Part shown: positions 35,452-63,410 of the stretch, piece after piece
How the letters are laid out: every line of letters begins with the position of its first letter
How positions within the stretch are numbered: the stretch's first letter is position 1
NCBI GenBank assembly: GCA_963575745.1
Contig: CAUYUJ010015511.1
Coordinates: 149,142 to 213,141, forward strand
Length of the DNA stretch: 64,000 bases
DNA from: Prorocentrum cordatum
Taxonomy: Eukaryota > Sar > Dinophyceae > Prorocentrales > Prorocentraceae
Direction of reading: 5' to 3'
Translations under genes and position numbers: made by a program
The notes under the pieces: model-generated
Seen by the model: only the letters and a program-made list of their open reading frames with translations
Databases searched by the model: none
What the model was told of the DNA's origin: nothing

Positions 35452-36991
35452 CGGAGAATGTAGCCGCAGCGAGTCAGCGGCGGTAGAACCCGCGCTGCCA
35501 GCTGCGGTCGGACCCGCGCTGCCCGAAGTCGGAGGCCTACAAGAGCAGGTGCCGGAAGACGACCGACTGCGGTTAGCCCCGCTTCGGAATGCCGTCATGC
35601 TCGACTCAGGCGCGCAGATCAGCGCAGTGCCGATGAAGCAGGTGACCAAGCACAACTACACGCCGACGGACAGCAACGTCGTTGGCTTGAAGGGTATCGG
35701 AGGCGAGGAGATCGAGAGGTACGGCCATGTGGAGCTTAACCTGTCCAGAGGAGGAGAGGTGATCCAAGTTGGTGCGGAAGTTGCCGACGTGAAGGACCCC
35801 GTTGTGGCCACAGATGCGGTAGTGCAACGAGGCCAGAGCGTTCTCCATAGCCCTGCAGGTCACTGGATCATCAACGGCGCCATCGAGCCACCTGATGGAG
35901 CTGAGTTCGTACCTCTACGACGTCATCAGGACAACTACTACTTAGAGTACGATTACATCATGGACGGCAAGACCCAACCAAACGCCGCGCAGGTAGCAAC
36001 AGTGAGGGAGACGCTACCGCGGAAGGTCCCAGCTGAGCAAGCAGCTGGATATTTGCCGAGGGTTCTCGGCCCAGAGGCGGACGAGACTACGACTGTGCCG
36101 ACGAGGGTGCTGAAATCACCCTACCAGCCTCGTGCAGCGGAGAGGGCCGCGCACGAAGGGCATCACCTACCGTTTCGCCCTTGGTGTCCACTGTGCGTGG
36201 AAGCTCGAGCGGACGACGATCCACACTACGGGCAGGAACCAACGGACGAGAAGCAAATGCCGAAGGTGGTGTTCGACATCTTGTACGGCGGGACTGACCA
36301 GCTGGCGGCTAAGTACAAACTCGAAAGAGGCCACTTCAGCTTCCGTGAGAAACCGCTGGTAACGAAAGCAGATCTAGAACAGGCGATCTCAGTTCTGAAC
36401 GTGATCGATTGCAAGATCCTGGCGCAGGCGACGCTGTATGCTAACAAGGAGCTAGACGACTACAAGGTGTGCTTCCTGATAACTGTGCTAGAGGTCTGGG
36501 GTCACACGGCAATTGTGCTCCAGACAAACCAGGAGCCTGCCGCGATGGCCCTGGCAAATGCAGTTCGAGATCGCAGGTCTCACTCTACCTTGGTGCGGGG
36601 ATCACCGCCTTTTTCCAAGCAGAGTGCTGGCTACGCCGAGGGTGCCAACAAACTTGCAGCAGGTTTGCTACGGACCTACAAACTGAAGCTGGAGCACAAG
36701 CTGGGGCGCGAGATCAAGATGACGGATCCGATCGTGCCTCGGCTCGCCAACTCGGTGGGCTGGATGATCACCAGGTTTTAGCCACGAAGCCATGGAGGCT
36801 CTTCCCACAAGATGCTGTGCGGCAAGGAGTACAGTTGTGAGATCGCGGGGATGGGCGAGCAGGTCTGGCATCGGATCTCAGCCCGAGTTGCTGCTGGACG
36901 CGGCAACTGGGAGGCCCGCTTCACGAAAGGGATCTGGGTTGGAAAGAGCGAATTGGACGACACTCGCGTGGCGTGCAGAAGGCAGAAGGTC

Positions 36992-37002
36992 AGGACCGTG
37001 CG
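36992..37002. repeat. Target-site duplication of LINE-B, left copy
   Basis: AGGACCGTGCG, identical to 43,598-43,608. On both sides the Copia frame reads (V)RTVR. Confidence 0.85.
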
Positions 37003-37119
37003 AGGCGAAGCGAAGCGAGGCGCCCGTCAGTCGTCCCGGCGGGGATGGCCCTACGAGAGCCCGGCGGTGGCGCTGGAGCGCCGAGAAAGAACCTTAGTCG
37101 GGGAGGAGGGAGGAAGGAC

Positions 37120-37530
37120 TCAGACCGTGAAGTGGGAGTTTTGCACACAATCCCCGCAATTGACATAAGCCAACAATTCGGGCTCCAACGCCGACCATGC
37201 TTTCTTGTCCGTCGCAATGTGTATCCACCTTTTGTGGTCGTCGTTCCCCTCGTGTGTAGTGACTGTGCGTACGAATTGTGTGACTTCGGCATCCCATCTT
37301 TTCCGTTGTCCTCCGTGGCGTCGTAGGGTTTGGCGTGGGTCGTGGGTGTTCGGGGTCCATTGTAGTGAGACCCGCGTCCATCTGTCGTAGTCGTGGGCTG
37401 CGACGCGCGATGCCCGCCGCCACTTCTGTGTGAAGTCTACCGTAGGCCAGTCCTCTACGCCTGCGCGCCGAGCATGCTCTAGGGCTGCGTGCGTCGATCG
37501 TCGTATGAATTCTTCCCATGGTTCCACAAC
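37120..37530 (-). pseudogene. LINE-B C-terminal domain
   Basis: 135-codon frame: EPWEEFIRRSTHAALEHARR, WPTVDFTQKWRRASRVAAHDYDRWTRVSL, TLRRHGGQRKRWDAEV, WSALEPELLAYV. Corresponds to 26,885-27,245 in LINE-A. Separated from the RT by frameshifts near 37,700-37,860. Function of this tail is unknown. Confidence 0.65.
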
Positions 37531-37699
37531 CCGTCGTCTTCTGCTCTGTCGTCGGCTCTGTCGTGGTGGATCGGGGAGTCTGCTGCGTCGGCGCTGGTCG
37601 CTTCGTTGGTGTCAGTGTCGCGAATGTGGTTTTGTATGTTGCGACGCCTTGGCATCCCGATGACAAACCTGAACATCCTCCGCTGTGCACGCCGTGAAG

Positions 37700-39016
37700 T
37701 GAGAAGCATGTCTCTGGTGAGAGTCCAAGAGGAGCACCCGTACATCACTGATGATGTGAATGTTCCGTTGAACAGCCCAGTCGACTGTGGAGTGGGAAGC
37801 ACTTGTGTGTCAGCTCGTATCTGACTTGGTTGAAGCGGCCCCATCCTGCGGCAACCCTAGTGCGTAGCTCTGTCTCGTGGAAGTCGTGGAAAGTAAGCTT
37901 CCTTCCTAAATACTTCGTGCTCTGGACGGAATGCAATATTTCGATGCGTTAACCGTTGACGTCGACATGAGAAACGGTTCTCCCCTCTCTCCGGCTGACG
38001 TTCGTCAGGGTCTTGGTCTTGTCCGGGTGCAGGGTCAAACCGCATGTCTTGGCTTGGGACTGTACATCCCGGAGCTAGCAGGAGAAATGTCGTAAGTTGG
38101 GGGCGTAGAGCAAGAGATCGTCAGCGAAACTTAGATGTGTGATTCGTGCTAGTGGTGCGAAGCCTAGTTGGATCCCGAAGATCTCGCGCTGCCACTCAGG
38201 CTTCACTTGTCTGAACACCTGCTCGAGGACAGCATCGAACAAGAAAGAACTCAGTGGGTCTCCCTGGTTCGCGCCACGCTCGAAACTTAAAGTCCTGCTG
38301 GTGGTGACTGTCCTGACTGTTGCCGTCTGGGTGCAGTGCAACTGTTTGAAGAAGTTCATGTATGCAGGAGGTATGTGCTGTTGTCGCACAGCTTCCCAGA
38401 ATTGTTCGTGGTCTACACAGTCAAACGCCTGCTTAAAGTCGACCGCTGCTGCCCACAGCTGTAGCTGCCACTCGTACGAACCCTCATGTAGCATGGCAGT
38501 GGTGAACAGGTGGTCCTCCGTGCAATAATCCATCCGGAAGCCTGCTGGGTCAGGGCACTGTTGCGAATCGAACAGAGAGTTCAGACGGTTGCAAAGGAGG
38601 CGAGACATCAATTTGTGGAACAATGGGATACTGGCAATCGGTCTGTAATTGCCTGGGAGTTGTGGGCTTCCTGATTTGTGAAGTACGGTGATTGTGGTGG
38701 TCTTCCACTGGTCCGGTGGTGTCTGAGTAGGTTTGGTTGTGACGTTGTAGAGTCGGAGTAGGTGGTAGTGTATGGTAGCGCCCCCAGCTTTGAGCATTTC
38801 TGCTGTGAGCCCCGCGGTGTCTTTGCACTTGTCTTTCTTGAATTGTTTGACTGCTTGCTGGAATTCGGTTGCAGTGAAATGTGGGATGGTTGAGTCGTGC
38901 TGAGTTGTCGTTGGGGTGACGCGGAAGCTGTCTGAACGGTGCGGATTGTTGTATAGCTCCTCGTAGAAGGTTGCGAATACGTCTCCTATGCTTTGCCTGT
39001 GTCTCCTCAGCGCCAT
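37700..39016 (-). pseudogene. LINE-B reverse transcriptase
   Basis: The 313-codon frame 39,016-38,075 is uninterrupted: DVFATFYEELYNNP, TAEMLKAGG, NYRPIASIPLFHKLMSRLLCNRL, AGFRMDYCTEDHLFTTAML, AAVDFKQAFDCVDHEQFW (motif A), RGANQGDPLSSFLFDAVLEQVF (motif B), THLSFADDLLLYAPNL (motif C, about 38,130-38,090). It then stops at 38,073 and the thumb continues in other frames (HPDKTKTLTNVSRREGRT, TKYLGRKLTFHDFHETELRTRVAAGWGRF, WTLTRDMLLTSRRAQRRMFRFVI). All catalytic residues are kept, so only the shifts after motif C inactivate it. Confidence 0.85.
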
Positions 39017-39019
39017 CAG

Positions 39020-40228
39020 GTGTCTTCATTGATGCAATTCGCTCTTTGTGCTTGGTGGTTTTTAAGCCAGCTGTTCTCTTTAGGTATTTGCATTGGCAAA
39101 CGATGTGTTCGAGCTTGGCATTCATCTCGTTGCGTTTGATGGCTCTTGTCTGCCGCATGATTTGCTTGCTGAGGGACCTTCTGGTAGCTGGGTCCCTTGG
39201 TGAAGTAGTGCGTCGTTGTTGGATGAGAGCTTTGAGCCGTGCTGTCGGACCGTCGTCGGGGATATCCGGAACGTCTCTGGTGCTTTTCTCGTGGTAGTCC
39301 TTGTTTGCAAGCTGGAGCCGTTCTCCGATGTCCCGGCATCTGCTGTCCAGGTCGGCGTCGTGGTGCTGCTTTGCCAGATGCTCTTGAAGGCACTGCTGAA
39401 AGAGAGGGTCGTCAGCTGAAGGTTGGGAGCGCCAGTGGTGGCGCGTTTGCTTGTGTCCCCTCTTCCTTCTCGCCGTAGTCCTAGATGCCAACTTGATGTG
39501 CATTGCTTGGTGGTCGGAGCCCAGATCTGGGACGTTGGAGGCGAACGAATCAATCACCTGGTTGCGACGTGCTGTCTATCAGGATGTAGTCAAATTGTAT
39601 ATGAGTCGGCTGTTTGCCACTGCTCGTGTAAGTGAAAAGGTTGTGGTGGTGCTTGTAGAAGAACGTGTTTGCAATGATCATCTCACGTGTGCTAGACCAA
39701 ATACGGAGCCATGCCCCTCGCGGGTTGCTCGTGCCCAGTCCGAACTTGCCTACCGTGTTCCTCCAGCCCAAGGTCTCGGATCGTTCGTCGTCGTCTTTGC
39801 CGCCGTCGTTATTGTCAAGGTGTCTACCAACCTGTGCATTGAAATCCCCCGTAATGGTGCACGTCCGCTTGTCTCGGATAGCGGCAGCGTACAATGAATC
39901 CAGATAGTCGTACATGTGCTGGATGTGAATGTCTGCGTATCTGGAATGAGGAAAATACGCCGTCACGACTTCCATGTTCTGGGATGTCGATGTCGATGTA
40001 AGCGATTCGCTCGTTGACGGCCCCGCAGCATCTGACATGCCGGACGCGTTGCCCATGAACGAGACATGCAACTCCTCGCGACGTGTCTGCGTGGCCAGAT
40101 GCTGCAAACAAATGGATGCCACGGCTTGTAATCCACATCTCTCGTCGATAGCAACAACATCCCAGTGTACGTCATTCGATTCATGCAACCACTCGTCTAT
40201 GGAATCGTCCGTTGTAAGACTTCGCACA
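39020..40228 (-). pseudogene. LINE-B APE-type endonuclease and linker
   Basis: Frame 40,227-39,550: DVRSLTTDDSIDEWL, NDVHWDVVAIDE, VVTAYFPHSRYADIHIQHMYDYL, TITGDFNAQVGRH (GDFN motif), NLFTYTSSGKQPTHIQFDYILI. A frame change near 39,550 leads to FASNVPDLGSDHQAMHIKL, with the SDH motif intact, unlike LINE-A. A second frame holds AASGHADTSRGVACLVHG, NERIAYIDIDIP, so the part at 40,140-39,960 is shifted. A basic linker (RSLSKQIMRQTRAIKRNEMNAKLEHIVCQ) runs to the RT. The nuclease nicks the target for primed reverse transcription. Confidence 0.8.
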
Positions 40229-40230
40229 TC

Positions 40231-41847
40231 CTAATGGTAAATGGTTGGGGTGACGATGGATGTGATGCTCGATTTGCAGATTGCGCTCTTTCTCGTCGCC
40301 GTCGTTGCTTTCCCGTGGGCGATTTCGGCGCATGCTGATGGGAACGTCGCCATCCGCCGTGCTATGTTTTCCTCGTCCTCCTCCAGTGTTTCGTGAATTG
40401 GTCTGTGTATGTGGAAGCGTGGAGTCGGGTGCCAGAGGCTGAAGGTCGGAATGCTGTGATGGCACTGGCTGGACGTCGATTCGTGGAGGTGGAAATGGAA
40501 AGTTGGATGTTGAAGGCCGGTGGTCGGGGTGCTGAGTTGGTGGAGGCTGGATTTCGATAGATGGAAGTGTTGCTGTGGACTCGGTTGCTGGAGGCTGGTG
40601 GTCGACAGGTGGAGGTGGAGGTGGAAAGTCGGATGCCTGAGGCTGGAGGTCGGTGTGCAGAGCTGGTTGACGCTGGAGGTCGACAGGTGTAGGTGGAAGT
40701 GGAAAGTCGGCTTATGGAGGGTGGACGTCGGGGTGCTGAGCTGGTTGACGCTGCAGGTCGATGGGTGGAGGTGGGGTTGGCACGTCACATGCTGCTGGAG
40801 GCTGGGGGTCGGAGTGCGGAGCGGCTGGAGGCTGGACGTCGATAGCTGGAGGTGGAGGTGGGAGCTTGGATGCTGGAGGCTGGAGGTCGGAGTGCTGAGC
40901 TGGTCCACGCTGGAGGTGGGCGGGTGGAGATGGAGGTGGGAAGTCACATGCTGCTGGAGGGCGGAGGTCTGAGTGCTGAGCTGCTGGACGCTGGTTGTCG
41001 ATAGCTGGAGGTGGAGGTTGAGGTGGAAAGTCACATGCTGGAGAGTGATGGTCGGAGGGCTGAGCTGGAGGACGCTGGGGGTCGACGGGTGGGGGCGGAG
41101 GTGAAAAGTCACATGCTGCTGGAGGGTGGAGGTCTGAGTGCTGAGCTGCTGGACGCTGGTTGTCGATAGCTGGAGGTGGAGGTTGAGGTGGAAAGTCACA
41201 TGCTGGAGAGTAATGGTCGGAGGGCTGAGCTGGTGGACGCTGGGGGTCGACGGGTGGGGGCGGAGGTGAAAAGTCACATGCTGCTGGAGGGCGGAGGTCT
41301 GAGTGCTGAGCTGCTGAACGCTGGATGTCGATAGCTGGAGGTTGAGGTTGAGGTGGAAAGTCGGATGCTGGAGGGTGGAGGTCGGAGTGCTGAGCTGGTC
41401 GACGCTGGAGGTCGATGGGTGGAGGCGGAGGTGGAAAGTCGGATGCTGCTGGAGGGTGGAGGTCTGAGTGCTGAGCTGCTGAACGCTGGTTGTCGATAGC
41501 TGGAGGTGGAGGTGGGAAGTCGGATGCTTGAGGCTGGAGGTCGGAGTGCTGAGCTGGTCGACGCTGGAGGTCGATGGGTGGAGGCGGAGGTGCAGAGTCA
41601 CATGCTGCTGGAGGGTGGAGATCGGGGTGCTGGTTGCTGGACGCTGGAGGTTGAGGTGGAACGTCGGACGCTTGAGGCTGAAGGTCGGAGTGCTGAGGTG
41701 GTCGGCGTTGGAGGTCGATGGGTGGGGGTGGAGTCGGAAAGTCACACGCTGCTGGAGGGTGGAGGTCTGAGCGCTGAGCTGCTGGACGTTGGAAGTCGAT
41801 AGGTGGAGGTGGAGGTTGAAGGCTGGAGATTGAACATCGGGAATCAA
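40231..41847 (-). CDS. Tandem-repeat Ser/Thr/Pro-rich region of LINE-B, joined to the endonuclease by one TAG
   Basis: 538-codon minus frame of 26-27 residue repeats such as STSSVDQLSTPTSSLQHP and FHLHLHPSTSS. It ends SIVTPTIYH, then TAG at 40,229-40,231, and the same frame continues as DVRSLTTDDS of the endonuclease. Readthrough or a single mutation would make one protein. The underlying DNA repeat has a period of 78-81 bp, a multiple of 3, so a second minus frame is open too (40,712-42,127, Pro/Gln/His-rich, DFPPPPPPIDLQRRPAQHS). The first is preferred because it is in frame with the endonuclease. Confidence 0.5.
   Translation of the reverse strand: MIPDVQSPAFNLHLHLSTSNVQQLSAQTSTLQQRVTFRLHPHPSTSNADHLSTPTFSLKRPTFHLNLQRPATSTPISTLQQHVTLHLRLHPSTSSVDQLSTPTSSLKHPTSHLHLQLSTTSVQQLSTQTSTLQQHPTFHLRLHPSTSSVDQLSTPTSTLQHPTFHLNLNLQLSTSSVQQLSTQTSALQQHVTFHLRPHPSTPSVHQLSPPTITLQHVTFHLNLHLQLSTTSVQQLSTQTSTLQQHVTFHLRPHPSTPSVLQLSPPTITLQHVTFHLNLHLQLSTTSVQQLSTQTSALQQHVTSHLHLHPPTSSVDQLSTPTSSLQHPSSHLHLQLSTSSLQPLRTPTPSLQQHVTCQPHLHPSTCSVNQLSTPTSTLHKPTFHFHLHLSTSSVNQLCTPTSSLRHPTFHLHLHLSTTSLQQPSPQQHFHLSKSSLHQLSTPTTGLQHPTFHFHLHESTSSQCHHSIPTFSLWHPTPRFHIHRPIHETLEEDEENIARRMATFPSACAEIAHGKATTATRKSAICKSSITSIVTPTIYH
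40440..41830. repeat. 78-81 bp coding minisatellite, about 17 units
   Basis: Units carry GGTGG(A/G)AAGTC, GATGCTG, GGTCGGAGTGCTGAGCTG and GACGCTGGAGGTCGAT. Most of the array has a unit length that is a multiple of three. Confidence 0.85.
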
Positions 41848-42197
41848 AAGCTGGTGATGGATGCTCGGAGTCGGAAGGTCGAAACTGGATGTCTGTCAGG
41901 TGGGGCTGACGGTCGATACGTAGAGGTGGGAGTGAGAGGTCGGATATGTGAAGCTGGAGGTCGGCAGGTGGAGGTGAGAGTGAGATGTCGATGTCTGCGG
42001 GAGGATGTTGACGAAGAAATCGGGCAGCAACGTCTCGTAGCAGGAGTGCACACTTTCTGGCTGCCTGTGGAGGCCCCTTTGACTCCGCCCTTTGTCCCCG
42101 CAGCGGCCCCCTGGAGCAAACCATCATATGCAGCGCTCAAATCAAGTAGTTTCGGGTGGCTCTGCAAGTCGCTCCACTGTTTCTAACTGTCGGCCCA

Positions 42198-42720
42198 TTA
42201 TGTGTCGATGTGTTCGTCGCGTGTTCTGACTGTAACCGCCAGTTCTCCGCCCACAACCACTTCGTAAAGAGACTGAACTGAAACCCTGATGGTGTACGGA
42301 GTGCTCATGTCGTTCTTTAGGATGAGTTTTAGTCCGAATGCAAACTGTCTGGCTGCACGGGCGGATGGCTGTCTGTCCGGTGTTGACCATGCAGTTTTGT
42401 CTGCACGGCGTAGATTAACACTGCGAAATAAGGCCACCGCAGCGTCTCGGTCGAGCATGGTGACGAACTCTGCAAACATGATGTTCTTGAACTCGTCCTC
42501 GAAGTATATGTTCACAGGGATCGGCCCACTCATCAAAGATAGATGTTCGCGGATATTTGCGCAAGCACACGTGGTCGTGTCGAAATGTTCAAAATTGCCG
42601 ATGACGGCAGTCACTGCATGTTTGCCTTGATAGTGGTATGCGTCTGCCGCTGCCGTGGCATGGGAAGCCCCAGAAAAAAGATCTTGGAGTGCAAGTTGGA
42701 ATCTGTTCAAATCGATTCTC
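42198..42720 (-). pseudogene. LINE-B ORF1, RRM-like region
   Basis: 170-codon minus frame: TAVIGNFEHFDTTTCACANIREHLSL, PVNIYFEDEFKNIMFAEFVTMLDRDAAVALFRSV, and FGLKLILKNDMSTPYTIRVSVQSLYEVV. The strand-helix-strand order with 'AVIGNF' and 'MFAEFVTMLDRDAA' at RNP-like positions fits the RRM fold of LINE ORF1 proteins, which bind the element RNA. Joined to the coiled coil by a frameshift near 42,700. Fold assignment is by pattern only. Confidence 0.45.
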
Positions 42721-43053
42721 TATATACGCTAGTCTCTCTTTCAATTCATTATCCATGCTCGTCGTGTGTATCTGCATGTTCTCGATGTCTGTGGCCATGG
42801 ACTCCTTCAAAGCTTGTGCTTTGCCGTCGAGGTTGTCGACTTGGGCCTCCTTCAAGGCATCGTTCAGCTCCTCCCTGGATACTGCATTCGTCTTTATGGC
42901 AGCAATGTCGTCTTGAATGGGCTTCAGGTGCATCTTGAGTGTTGCCTTGAGACTGTTTGCAGTATGTGGTCCTTCGGCGTCGTTGAGCGACTCTTCGAAT
43001 GCGCCTTGTCGTGCGGCAACCGCGTCACGATCGAATGCCGTGCCGTCGTCCAT
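42710..43053 (-). pseudogene. LINE-B ORF1, coiled-coil region
   Basis: Start at ATG 43,051: MDDGTAFDRDAVAARQGAFEESLNDAEG, then LKMHLKPIQDDIAAIKTNAVSREELNDALKEAQVD, ESMATDIENMQIHTT, DNELKERLAYIENRFEQI. Heptad-like spacing of I/L/V suggests a coiled coil for ORF1 multimerisation. The frame runs on past it to 42,589 out of phase with the RRM-like region. Confidence 0.45.
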
Positions 43054-43079
43054 GGTGTTGAGTGGGGAGGAGATCTTGG

Positions 43080-43409
43080 CCGAGCACGTCTGTCAGCAGC
43101 TCTGACTGGGGTCGAGATATCGACAGTGTGTGCTGACTCCGCTGAGCCCTGCGATTTGGGAGGGGAGTACACCACAACGACTCCCTCTCCTGTCTGGCGC
43201 TTCTTCTGTACATGCTTTCCTGCTTGATTTCCTGCACAAGTCATGCAGAGAGTGTATCCACATAGCTCCCCGTTGCAGATCATGAACAACTTGGGCGGAG
43301 GAATGTCAGTATCACAAGTGCTGCACACAACCTGCGTGTCTAAAACCTGATTATCCGTTCTGTGCGATTGAGGGCATTGCAGAGATATCGACATCACAAT
43401 CAAGTGCAA
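43080..43409 (-). pseudogene. LINE-B ORF1, N-terminal Cys-rich finger
   Basis: 161-codon minus frame (43,409-42,924): VVCSTCDTDIPPPKLFMICNGELCGYTLCMTCAG (about 43,335-43,240). Six cysteines in C-x2-C ... C-x4-C-x4-C-x2-C spacing look like a zinc finger. Ser/Pro/Arg-rich sequence follows. It precedes the coiled coil in the order finger - coil - RRM-like, as expected for a LINE first ORF. Confidence 0.4.
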
Positions 43410-43499
43410 AATTGTAGACGTATGGTATGGGGACTGATGATGTGGAGTATGTGAAGTACGGGAATGTTAGGGGATACGGGAATCGAAGGGGGTACGAAA

Positions 43500-43597
43500 G
43501 AGCGTCAACCTTGAGCACCTTGAGCCTTGAGCCAAAATTGCTCAAGGCTCAAGGTGCTATAGGCCAAAATGGCTCAAGGCTCATGGCTTGAGCCTTG
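43500..43597 (-). other. Spliced-leader relics at the 5' end of LINE-B
   Basis: Read on the minus strand from the target duplication, the insert begins CAAGGCTCAAG and contains CCATTTTGGC (43,574-43,565) and CAATTTTGGCTCAAG (43,540-43,526 region), plus repeats of GCTCAAG. The last 15 bases of the dinoflagellate spliced leader are CCATTTTGGCTCAAG; one copy matches 14 of 15 and another the first 10. This is what is left when a trans-spliced transcript is reverse transcribed and trans-spliced again. Confidence 0.7.
43514..43558. repeat. Perfect 19-bp inverted repeat
   Basis: Arms 43,514-43,532 and 43,540-43,558 with a 7-base loop, built from AGCACC and two CTTGAGC units. A second palindrome (11-bp arms, CTCAAGGCTCA) lies at about 43,572-43,598. 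Confidence 0.85.
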
Positions 43598-44567
43598 AGG
43601 ACCGTGCGGAGGATGCCGGAGGGGTTTAGGTGGCAGCCTGAGCTCATCCAGAACGTCAGGGTGACGCCGTGGAAACACATCCCTCACAAGAGTGCAGAAC
43701 CCATCGGACGCAGCATGTACATCACGGAGCGCATGATCGACGCTCGCGGCCCGACCGAGGACTGCAAGAAATGCAACACTGGATATGGATCGCATTCGGC
43801 TGCCTGCCGTCAGCGGTTCGAGACAATACAGGCCGACCTCCTGCGCGAGAAGTTGGAAAAGGACCCTGTGGCTCCAGAGGCTACGGTGGTGGTGCCAGCC
43901 CCGGCTGCGGGAGCCTCCGCGCCTGCAGCAGCGGCTGGACCAGCAGCGGCATCAAGCAGCAGTGAGGGTAGCACCCGCAACTTCTGCAGAAGACGCGGCC
44001 ATGCCTCCTGTCCCAGGGGAGACAGAAGCACAGACAGCCATGCAGACGGAATCTGACCAGATCAGGAGCGGCTTCCAGAGAGGCGCCCCGGGAGAGCCGA
44101 GGGCCGAAGTGGAGATCAAGAAGCCGAGAGTAGCAACCATCGGTATGCTCTCTGTCTGCGAACTGGCAGTCTGCGAGGAAGGCTACGACGAGACTTCCGA
44201 CCCGATGTGGGATCCACACCCGAAGCAAAGTTCAAGATGCTCGCATAGGTGTGAGAAGCATTCGTCGAGATGCCAGCTGAGGGAGTGCCACCGAGGTGAG
44301 TGTGCATGCAGGCGCTGCCTGATGAGTCACATCGGCACGACCAGGAGTCACTTAGGAGAACTTGACGAGGAGCAGATCGAGCAGATGGTTGAGGTTAGTG
44401 CCGAGTTGCACGAGCACGACCAGTGGAGCCCAAAGACTGTACACCACTATTACTACACTGGAGAGCCCCTGGACGAGGATCTGTGCCAGAAAGGTCGCGA
44501 CGACGACAAGCTTCAGGCTTTTCGGCGCGTGCATTCCTCGTGGTCTCACGCTCCCTGCTTGGTTTGA
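43598..44567 (+). pseudogene. Copia polyprotein continued, region between integrase and RT
   Basis: Resumes exactly after the second copy of the duplication as RTVRRMPEGFRWQPELIQNV. Then MYITERMIDARGPTEDCKKCNTGYGSHSAACRQRFE (about 43,712-43,830), the Cys/His block between integrase and RT in dinoflagellate Copia proteins, an Ala/Pro linker, a frame change near 43,980-44,050, MLSVCELAVCEEGYDE, and HHYYYTGEPLDEDLCQKGRDDD (about 44,440-44,505), which is the 'TGEPLDPxLVxxAR' stretch just before the RT. The RT and RNase H are not found; LINE-C begins just after. Confidence 0.65.
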
Positions 44568-61599: not shown

Positions 61600-62560
61600 C
61601 AACCTAGAAGCCCCGTTGAAACAACGATTCCCCCGACACCTCCTCAGAAGGTCGACGCGAAGCTGTTTCGCGGGGGCAGCTTCAACACCACCATCCCGAA
61701 CGCAACGCCTCAGAAAAAAATGCGCCGACCCCTGCAGCTCCGCACTGCCGACGACCTCTCGCCCAATCGACCGCAGTGCCTCATCACGGGCCGGCGGAAT
61801 GAGCGAAGCGATTACATATTTTCAAACAGAGGTCCAGTACAGGGACATCGATGCGAGCGAGAACCTCAAGCACCACGCCGCGCATACTCGCCCAATCAGA
61901 CATGGGAGTAGAAGCGGCGGCGAGTCCACCCGCTCCTGCAGTTCGCGAAGTCGGAAGGTCTTGTCTCCACGATCCCACGGCGCGTCCCCCGAAAATCCTG
62001 AAGACGAGGCGCCCGAATGCGTGGGCGACGGTGCTGGAAGATCACCGGTTTTGTCCAACATCCATTTGAGCTAAGCAATTATGTGAATATGGACCTACTA
62101 CACTAGAAAAAAAAGAAATTGCGGATCATACACCGGTTGAGCAGCCGCCACAGCCTGAAGAACAAACCATGCGGACTGATACGAAGCCGGCTGTGCAGGA
62201 GCAGATGCCCCCTCATGCAGAGTAGGATGCTGCGGAAAAGACGCAGTGGCCGTCGGGTTCAATTCGCGACCTTGCAGACGAGGGCGATCGCGACGGACAA
62301 CAACAATATCAGGTCCAGTGCGATGCTCCTCACCGAAAACCTCATCAATGGAATATGCTATCCTCTGCTGCGTGATGTGCTCACAGAAATGGTGGGCGAA
62401 ATCGACACTGATAATATTGCTACGAAATTTGGGAGACAAGCTTTCCAAAGCACGCGCTGCCGCTGACAAGCCTTGGAAACTGGGTACCGTTGGGAGGCGC
62501 CAGACAACGGAGAAGCCGTCCGTGCAGTGACGAGACCAACTCGCGTGCATCCAGAAGCGA
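61600..62560 (+). other. Possible remnant of a Copia linker region
   Basis: The plus frame at 62,128-62,340 reads TPVEQPPQPEEQTMRTDTKPAV, QEQMPPHAE-stop, then a hydrophilic stretch (RDLADEGDRDGQQQYQ). The Pro/Glu/Gln composition and order recall the linker between integrase and RT in dinoflagellate Copia proteins (as at 43.85-44.05 kb), but no hard motif is present. Confidence 0.2.
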
Positions 62561-63410
62561 AGACATCGGAGAGGCAAGAACACAACACGGGGCAACACAG
62601 CAAAACCCGCTTGAGCCACAACGGCTACGGTGGAGGAGGAGGGGGGAGGAGGAGTAGAGGAGAAGAGGAGGGAGGAAGAGGAGGAGGGTGAAAAAGGAGA
62701 AAGGTGTGACAAAAGGAAGGAGGCGCGCGGTGCTGCGGATTCAAAACGCGGGCCCAACCGACAGAAGGGTTGGGAATGAACTGAGGGCGTGAATATCGAT
62801 AGGGCAGGGTAGTTCAAAATTCTCGAGGGCAAGGGCTGAGCCTCGGATTTGACTAGCTGCTTCGTGTTACTAGACGCCTTCTCCCCCACCCGACTGACTT
62901 CCGACCGGCAACCAAGCCAACATACCCCTCTGTCACTGGCACTGGCACTTGCACTGGCTCCAGGTGCGTGGCGCCGTGGAAGCTCAGCGGAGGGGGCACC
63001 GAGGCGCCCGAAAGCTACAGTCCAATACTAACATGACGACGAAGGAACCAGCGCGCGGGAAACCGCAGAAGCACGAGGAGGAAGGGTGGCGACATCGCCC
63101 CACTGCCACTGCAGAAAAATAATTCGGAGCACCAGCTGTGGCAAAATGCTGGACCGTACACGGGCTCATTGTGACCACTTCGTAATATTGTTATGATAGG
63201 GACGGCGGAGGGTCGGCATCTTGCCCGATGCACGCAGGCCCACCATCACTGTCAACAACGATTACAGAGTGACTCGCGGGCGCACATACCATACACCATG
63301 ATAGCGTCCCCGCCTCCGTTTTGTATTTGTTTTGACTGAGATGGCGGTGTGGGGGCCGACGTGCTTCCTGATGTGGTGTCACGATCGCTGGCGCACCTGC
63401 CACACGCCGC
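62561..63410. other. No recognised content
   Basis: A purine-rich GGA run at about 62,631-62,690; otherwise no repeat or coding signal seen. Confidence 0.35.

Follow-up and report, generated by a model that had tools for sequence, protein, structure and literature searches.

Spliced-leader sequences at the 5′ ends of LINEs in the dinoflagellate Prorocentrum cordatum

Introduction

It is established that dinoflagellate retrogenes carry spliced-leader (SL) relics (PMC3229502, PMC12014239, PMC7245778); these relics (DinoRL) were described by Slamovits and Keeling in 2008, as cited in PMC3229502 and PMC12014239. As far as the accessible parts of these papers go, the retrogenes carry the same SL as the LINEs reported here, a 15-nt relic left after the first 7 nt are lost at the internal AG, and tandem relics from repeated cycles. 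The cargo there is a host mRNA copied by the enzyme of another element, whereas the relics described here mark the starts of LINEs that have, or formerly had, the coding sequence for a reverse transcriptase of their own. The type of retroelement that copies dinoflagellate mRNAs back is given as unknown in the available portion of a review, which favours LTR elements (PMC6050394). Among endogenous dinoRNAV sequences, 6 of 26 genes have an SL no more than 500 bp away, which was taken as a mark of retroposition, and LINEs were suspected as the machinery; the LINEs' own 5′ ends lie outside the scope of the text available to us (PMC10235124).

Other trans-splicing hosts offer partial parallels. In Schistosoma mansoni, six SLs merged to transposable elements were interpreted as possible products of trans-splicing and retro-transcription, and the authors allow for misassembly (PMC5832876); the accessible part of that paper does not survey 5′ edges, duplications or series of relics. 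In C. elegans, the short mRNA of the LTR element Cer1 bears SL1, and its 8-kb RNA is not trans-spliced (PMC3315495, accessible part). The trypanosomatid L1Tc/ingi LINEs likewise live in a trans-splicing host, and a short 5′ block recurs among related elements. According to the consulted part of PMC8190864, these LINEs carry Pr77 as an internal promoter and a ribozyme at the 5′ end, and their transcripts are unspliced. In the present LINEs, by comparison, the host leader would be a part of the copied RNA, as judged from the DNA. SL relics of retrogenes are thus known, but SLs at the 5′ edges of dinoflagellate LINEs appear to be unreported, no report having been found in a literature search that left most subscription papers out of reach.

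Results

The window is the whole stretch of 64,000 nt analysed here, C14662:149142-213141. The genome searched is the 4.13-Gb assembly of P. cordatum, in 21,875 contigs. LINE-B lies on the minus strand of the window, with the following parts.

36992..37002, no strand: target duplication AGGACCGTGCG, copy at the LINE-B 3′ end (exact 11-bp pair)
37003..43597, minus: LINE-B, a non-LTR retrotransposon with broken frames, placed by the target duplications, the reverse transcriptase match and the sibling L010
38078..39025, minus: reverse transcriptase (Pfam RVT_1, E 3.4e-20)
39553..40230, minus: putative remnant of an APE-type endonuclease (Pfam Exo_endo_phos, E 0.018, below cut-off)
42201..42719, minus: conserved ORF1 domain of 173 aa, from the frames (150 scored matches of 1,661 candidates)
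43170..43394 (C14662:192311-192535), minus: ORF1 N-terminus of 75 aa, query for the SL-independent search
43598..43608, no strand: target duplication AGGACCGTGCG, copy at the LINE-B 5′ end (exact 11-bp pair)

The coding parts of LINE-B are spread over several frames. Its reverse transcriptase, the only domain that Pfam named on 20 frames of the window, places it among the LINEs, and the solved relatives of this domain include LINE-1 ORF2 and R2. The related L012 has the same domain (RVT_1, E 1.9e-36), and there Exo_endo_phos is above cut-off (E 1.3e-6). The element is bounded by the target duplication, and no pair of long terminal repeats was found among the 20 of 36 direct repeat families listed for 36000-44500. 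Outside the P. cordatum genome, ORF1 homologues comprise two proteins, 43 and 45% identical, that come without context.

Nucleotides 40430-42007 (minus) of LINE-B form a long tandem array with a period of about 165 bp that reads as a proline-rich stretch, and the length of this array seems to vary among related LINEs. The 3′ ends of LINE-B, L012 and L102 carry short family-specific tandem repeats (CGCTT/CGCCT, TCTTC and GTACT), not poly-A.

The 5′ end of LINE-B contains the following features.

43436..43509, minus: 5′ UTR block (GTTGACGCTCTTTCGTACCCCCTT...) common to other LINE families (DNA matches, with ORF1 relatives downstream)
43510..43597, minus: 5′ leader of SL relics, with four sense and three inverted GCTCAAG
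43514..43558, minus: hairpin with a perfect 19-bp stem and the loop AATTTTG from the SL dyad (folding)
43526..43540, minus: SL relic CAATTTTGGCTCAAG, 14/15 to the relic form CCATTTTGGCTCAAG
43563..43572, minus: partial relic CCATTTTGGC, read from the sequence
43573..43599, minus: second hairpin with an 11-bp stem and the loop AGCCA, its outer two bases inside the duplication

The original prediction placed the relics CAATTTTGGCTCAAG and CCATTTTGGC on the coding strand of LINE-B just inside its target duplication, and the exact pair of AGGACCGTGCG bears this out; both relics fall within the first 90 nt of the element. Its statement that one relic matches 14 of 15 bases of the truncated SL is also correct. 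CAATTTTGGCTCAAG, read from 43540 to 43526, carries the final 13 nt of the SL exactly. Within the window, 8 matches to the 15-mer with at most 3 mismatches occur, the mean of shuffled sequences being 2.0; none of 100 shuffles reaches 8. The extra copies of GCTCAAG were rightly noted too, and the leader holds seven of them within 43510-43593. Four are in the sense of the coding strand (43510-43516, 43519-43525, 43526-43532 and 43587-43593), but three, which the prediction left unmentioned, are inverted (43540-43546, 43547-43553 and 43572-43578). Across the window GCTCAAG is only weakly enriched, 20 copies against 12, with 3 of 100 shuffles reaching 20. The signal is therefore its clustering at the insertion edge.

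The LINE-B leader folds with -63.1 kcal/mol (z -9.4). The loop of the larger hairpin, AATTTTG, is the middle of the SL's own near-palindrome. A search of 36900-43700 for Rfam ribozymes and structured RNAs gave two sub-threshold matches and no others, mir-879 at 25.8 bits (cut-off 90) and P26 at 19.2 (cut-off 36), both because of the LINE-B hairpin.

The 5′ kilobase of LINE-B as a query gave 28 matches, including that of the window itself. The closest sibling, L010, is about 86-87% alike from end to end in several pieces. It begins with TGGCTCAAG directly after CCCCGCGC, and CCCCGCGC is present again at its 3′ end. L012, in which both frames are open (ORF1 450 aa, ORF2 2,024 aa), begins with the complete 22-nt SL ACCGTAGCCATTTTGGCTCAAG, followed by 47 nt and ORF1. 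A complete SL also stands ahead of ORF1 in L018; L014 has CCATCTTGGCTCAAG and L016 has TGGCTCAAG. L013, 98.6% identical to L012 over 7.5 kb, and L011 are without an SL at the place where L012 has it.

Short matches to the 5′ UTR block come from LINE families whose ORF1 is distant, 27-49% identical in amino acids (L020-L024, L026). L023 and L024 are one sequence on two contigs, flank included, and should count once. SL-like words precede the block in L020, L021, L023 and L024 and are absent in L022 and L026. L027 has a full SL and relics before the block, with no ORF1 match in the available piece.

Target duplications were found in three of six copies tested, LINE-B, L010 (imperfect) and L102; L012, L013 and L098 have no clear one. 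The duplication of L102, GCTCTCCAGCA, is 11 bp as computed and 13 bp by eye. In three copies, one of which has an exact duplication of only 8 bp, the SL or relics stand at the LINE 5′ edge directly after the duplication.

Five pairs of nearly identical copies show different SL contents. Over 716 nt, which include an SL plus a relic, L098 and L102 share 99.9% identity; upstream they diverge. L098 retains the full 22-nt SL there. L102 starts, after GCTCTCCAGCA, with AGCCATT, a 12-nt insertion and TTGGCTCAAG, and then has the full relic. An SL followed by a relic is known to mark re-splicing (PMC3229502, accessible part), and at least two rounds are therefore visible in this LINE. L096 and L099 are 98.5% identical; L099 reads GCGCCAAG followed by CATTTCGCATACCC, and the SL of L096 is joined at exactly that AG. 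The AG joint in genomic copies is also written as GCGCCAAG followed by CATTTCGC. The SL is likewise joined behind an AG, between ATTCAAG and AGCCCATTC, when L074 is compared with L071 (96%). L108 has several relics, and L107, 95.5% alike, has no GGCTCAAG. In L108, decay has gone further in the outer relic than in the inner ones, opposite to the simple expectation. The fifth pair is L012/L013, and at the L012 joint L013 reads TTAT, not AG.

These pairs bear on the possibility that the LINE 5′ UTR itself contains the SL-like stretch, as a promoter box or leader mimic that copies inherit and do not gain by trans-splicing. Such a motif would account for the 5′ UTR block that related LINE families share, with SL-like words in front of it, and the SL has itself been proposed to hold a promoter motif, TTT(G) (PMC6050394, in the portion available). 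However, copies that are 95-99.9% alike (L098/L102, L096/L099, L108/L107, L012/L013) differ in the presence, length or number of SLs, which argues against a fixed 5′ UTR motif, and complete SLs including the 5′ CCGTAG exist in L012, L018 and L098. We consider a built-in motif improbable, though it is the best placed of the alternatives.

Two samples of LINEs were chosen without reference to the SL. The ORF1 N-terminus gave 17 loci, LINE-B included, 10 of which were already known from the earlier matches. A sense match of at least 14/15 within 320 bp upstream is present in 7 of the 17 (exact 15-mer in 3), with none for the antisense and the reversed sequence. The second sample draws on the 150 scored matches of the conserved ORF1 domain, about every third one being taken from about rank 9. 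Two further regions were added, one of them for its long frame, and L096, picked for its palindrome, is outside the counts. The sample is 39 regions of at most 1.2 kb each, one of them shortened by a contig end. Several of the regions come from the same young families, and the counts are therefore not independent events.

The octamer GGCTCAAG occurs in sense in 21 of the 39 regions and in antisense in one, and is absent from 18; the reversed octamer occurs in none in sense and in two in antisense. Matches of at least 13/15 to the relic are found in 11 regions in sense, 1 in antisense and 0 for the reversed sequence. As in SL-tagged retrocopies, a sense SL or relic lies at the 5′ end, in LINE-B with 14/15 and in 21 of the 39 regions of the clade with the octamer. 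Across the clade, then, copies do not simply start with unrelated sequence, and the complete SL opens L012, whose two frames are intact; yet nearly half of the regions are without the octamer. For 34 of the 36 sense sites of GGCTCAAG, the distance to the ORF1 match downstream is 559-725 nt. By the number of loci that share it, GGCTCAAG ranks first of all 8-mers, followed by TGGCTCAA (20), TTGGCTCA (17) and ATTTTGGC (15), and the top 8-mers neighbouring it spell ATTTTGGCTCAAG. The exact 15-mer has 9 sites at 7 loci of the 39 regions; its genome-wide density predicts 0.13 sites there.

Genome-wide, the relic 15-mer has 23,175 exact copies, and its reversed control has 3. The full SL minus its first base occurs 14,218 times and the tandem relic 2,546 times. 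The exact SL palindrome is found 26 times, about 6 being expected by chance from the relic number (23,175/4,096). GGCTCAAG stands 0-30 nt before GTACCCCCTTA at 62 places, some overlapping or in one tandem array, and an inverted octamer within 30 nt before GTACCCCCTTA at none. When 18 SL loci (L001-L008, L059-L068) were compared with the LINE-B proteins, one match was below E 1e-3, that of L065. Palindromic SLs stand at the LINE starts of L065 and L096. Of ten palindromes read, L062 is the only one extended symmetrically over a long stretch (14 bp); in the rest the extension is 0-3 bp.

The counts speak to a second alternative, that slippage or fold-back multiplied GCTCAAG locally, as a tandem or inverted repeat whose likeness to the SL arose by chance or convergence. 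LINE-B itself invites this reading through its three inverted copies and strong hairpin; tandems of the 7-mer also occur in L105 and L081, and six copies spaced by 63 bp in C14287. Yet the placement in the 39 regions is sense-only and clustered at the edge, the exact palindrome is rare beside the tandem relic, the 8-mers around GGCTCAAG spell ATTTTGGCTCAAG, and the sibling L010 already starts with TGGCTCAAG. A local repeat is therefore very unlikely. An origin in a satellite or simple repeat was rejected on the same placement and on the rarity of the exact palindrome: relics are abundant genome-wide, though in the LINEs they far exceed that density and keep to a narrow zone upstream of ORF1, so that a satellite unrelated to transcript starts does not describe them. 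Fold-back was also rejected as a general source of SL repeats, given 26 palindromes against 2,546 tandem relics, and was kept for LINE-B.

Discussion

The RNAs of these LINEs very probably receive an SL by trans-splicing, are reverse-transcribed together with it, and are spliced again in some of the later cycles. The host SL would be trans-spliced onto the LINE RNA at an AG that lies within the 5′ UTR or ahead of it. At the nicked target, the element's reverse transcriptase would then copy the SL-bearing RNA as far as the 5′ end of the SL, or almost as far, and the new copy would start with a complete or 5′-shortened SL right after the target duplication. Upon later transcription from further upstream, an AG inside the old SL or preceding it could receive a new SL, leaving a relic, and relics would accumulate. 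From the genomic sequences we infer trans-splicing of the LINE RNA as the source of the SL, the order of the steps and the fold-back considered below.

That the SL is instead added during insertion, by a jump of the reverse transcriptase from the LINE RNA to the end of an SL RNA or of an SL-capped mRNA, would suit the L012 joint, which has no AG in the near-identical L013, and the shortened SL pieces and 12-nt insertion at the edges of L105 and L102, but it has little probability given that L096/L099 and L074/L071 have an AG where the SL is joined, and given the SL plus relic of L098/L102.

The data support trans-splicing followed by retrotransposition in the LINE clade, and in LINE-B up to one cycle. 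The original prediction had gone further, suggesting a LINE-B transcript that was trans-spliced, retrotransposed and trans-spliced again at least once. The clade supports this, and LINE-B supports at least one cycle, but since three of its seven GCTCAAG copies are inverted and a hairpin forms the core, splicing for a second time is not demonstrated in LINE-B itself; it is visible in L098/L102, where tandem SL and relics are clear. The LINE-B array has been rearranged into a hairpin, and the number of cycles is therefore unreadable from it. The rearrangement would have followed the accumulation of relics, perhaps when the cDNA end folded back at the SL near-palindrome AGCCATTTTGGCT. Such fold-back would copy the adjacent GCTCAAG inversely and yield the perfect 19-bp stem with the SL dyad as its loop. 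L062, with its stem extended 14 bp past the SL, has the same geometry as the LINE-B hairpin.

The presence of the SL at the LINEs' own insertion edge suggests that a LINE reverse transcriptase can copy SL-bearing RNA all the way, or almost all the way, to its 5′ end. This makes LINEs a concrete candidate for the machinery of mRNA retroposition. As the RNA of trypanosome LINEs is unspliced in the part of PMC8190864 available to us, two opposite lifestyles of LINEs in trans-splicing hosts would exist. How the element keeps its promoter while the host removes and replaces its 5′ end is a puzzle. The relics may give a countable record of retrotransposition cycles.

A wider picture is conceivable, although we lean slightly against it as a whole. 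A whole LINE clade might have no private 5′ end, host trans-splicing giving it a fresh leader in each round and the LINE writing that leader into DNA. Stacked relics would record the cycles, the proposed promoter motif of the SL would be carried to new sites, and the same LINEs might be a main driving force behind the dinoflagellate retrogenes that bear an SL.

The 74-nt 5′ UTR block (43436-43509, minus) is up to 92% alike across LINE families whose ORF1 is distantly related. The block was rejected as a trait specific to LINE-B, as the short matches place it in other families. It somewhat resembles a shared 5′ hallmark such as Pr77 and may be a promoter or a splice signal.

Related LINEs with long open frames include L056 (C14267:760839-761060; 1,253 aa) and L107 (C11914:241401-241802; 1,105 aa), and several LINE families may therefore be young. 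The SL palindrome of L062, with its stem 14 bp longer, lies outside any recognised LINE piece and adjoins tandem GGGTCTGCAA. At C14287:155102-155565, six copies of GGCTCAAGAGCTGTACCCCCTTA follow each other with a 63-bp period, one step being tripled; the array looks like a tandemly repeated LINE 5′ UTR with an SL. Elsewhere in the window, at 62610-62631 (minus), ACCGTAGCCGTTGTGGCTCAAG agrees with the complete SL except for 2 mismatches and precedes an open frame of 309 aa (62098-63027, minus), and the two likely form a second retroposed unit of the same window.
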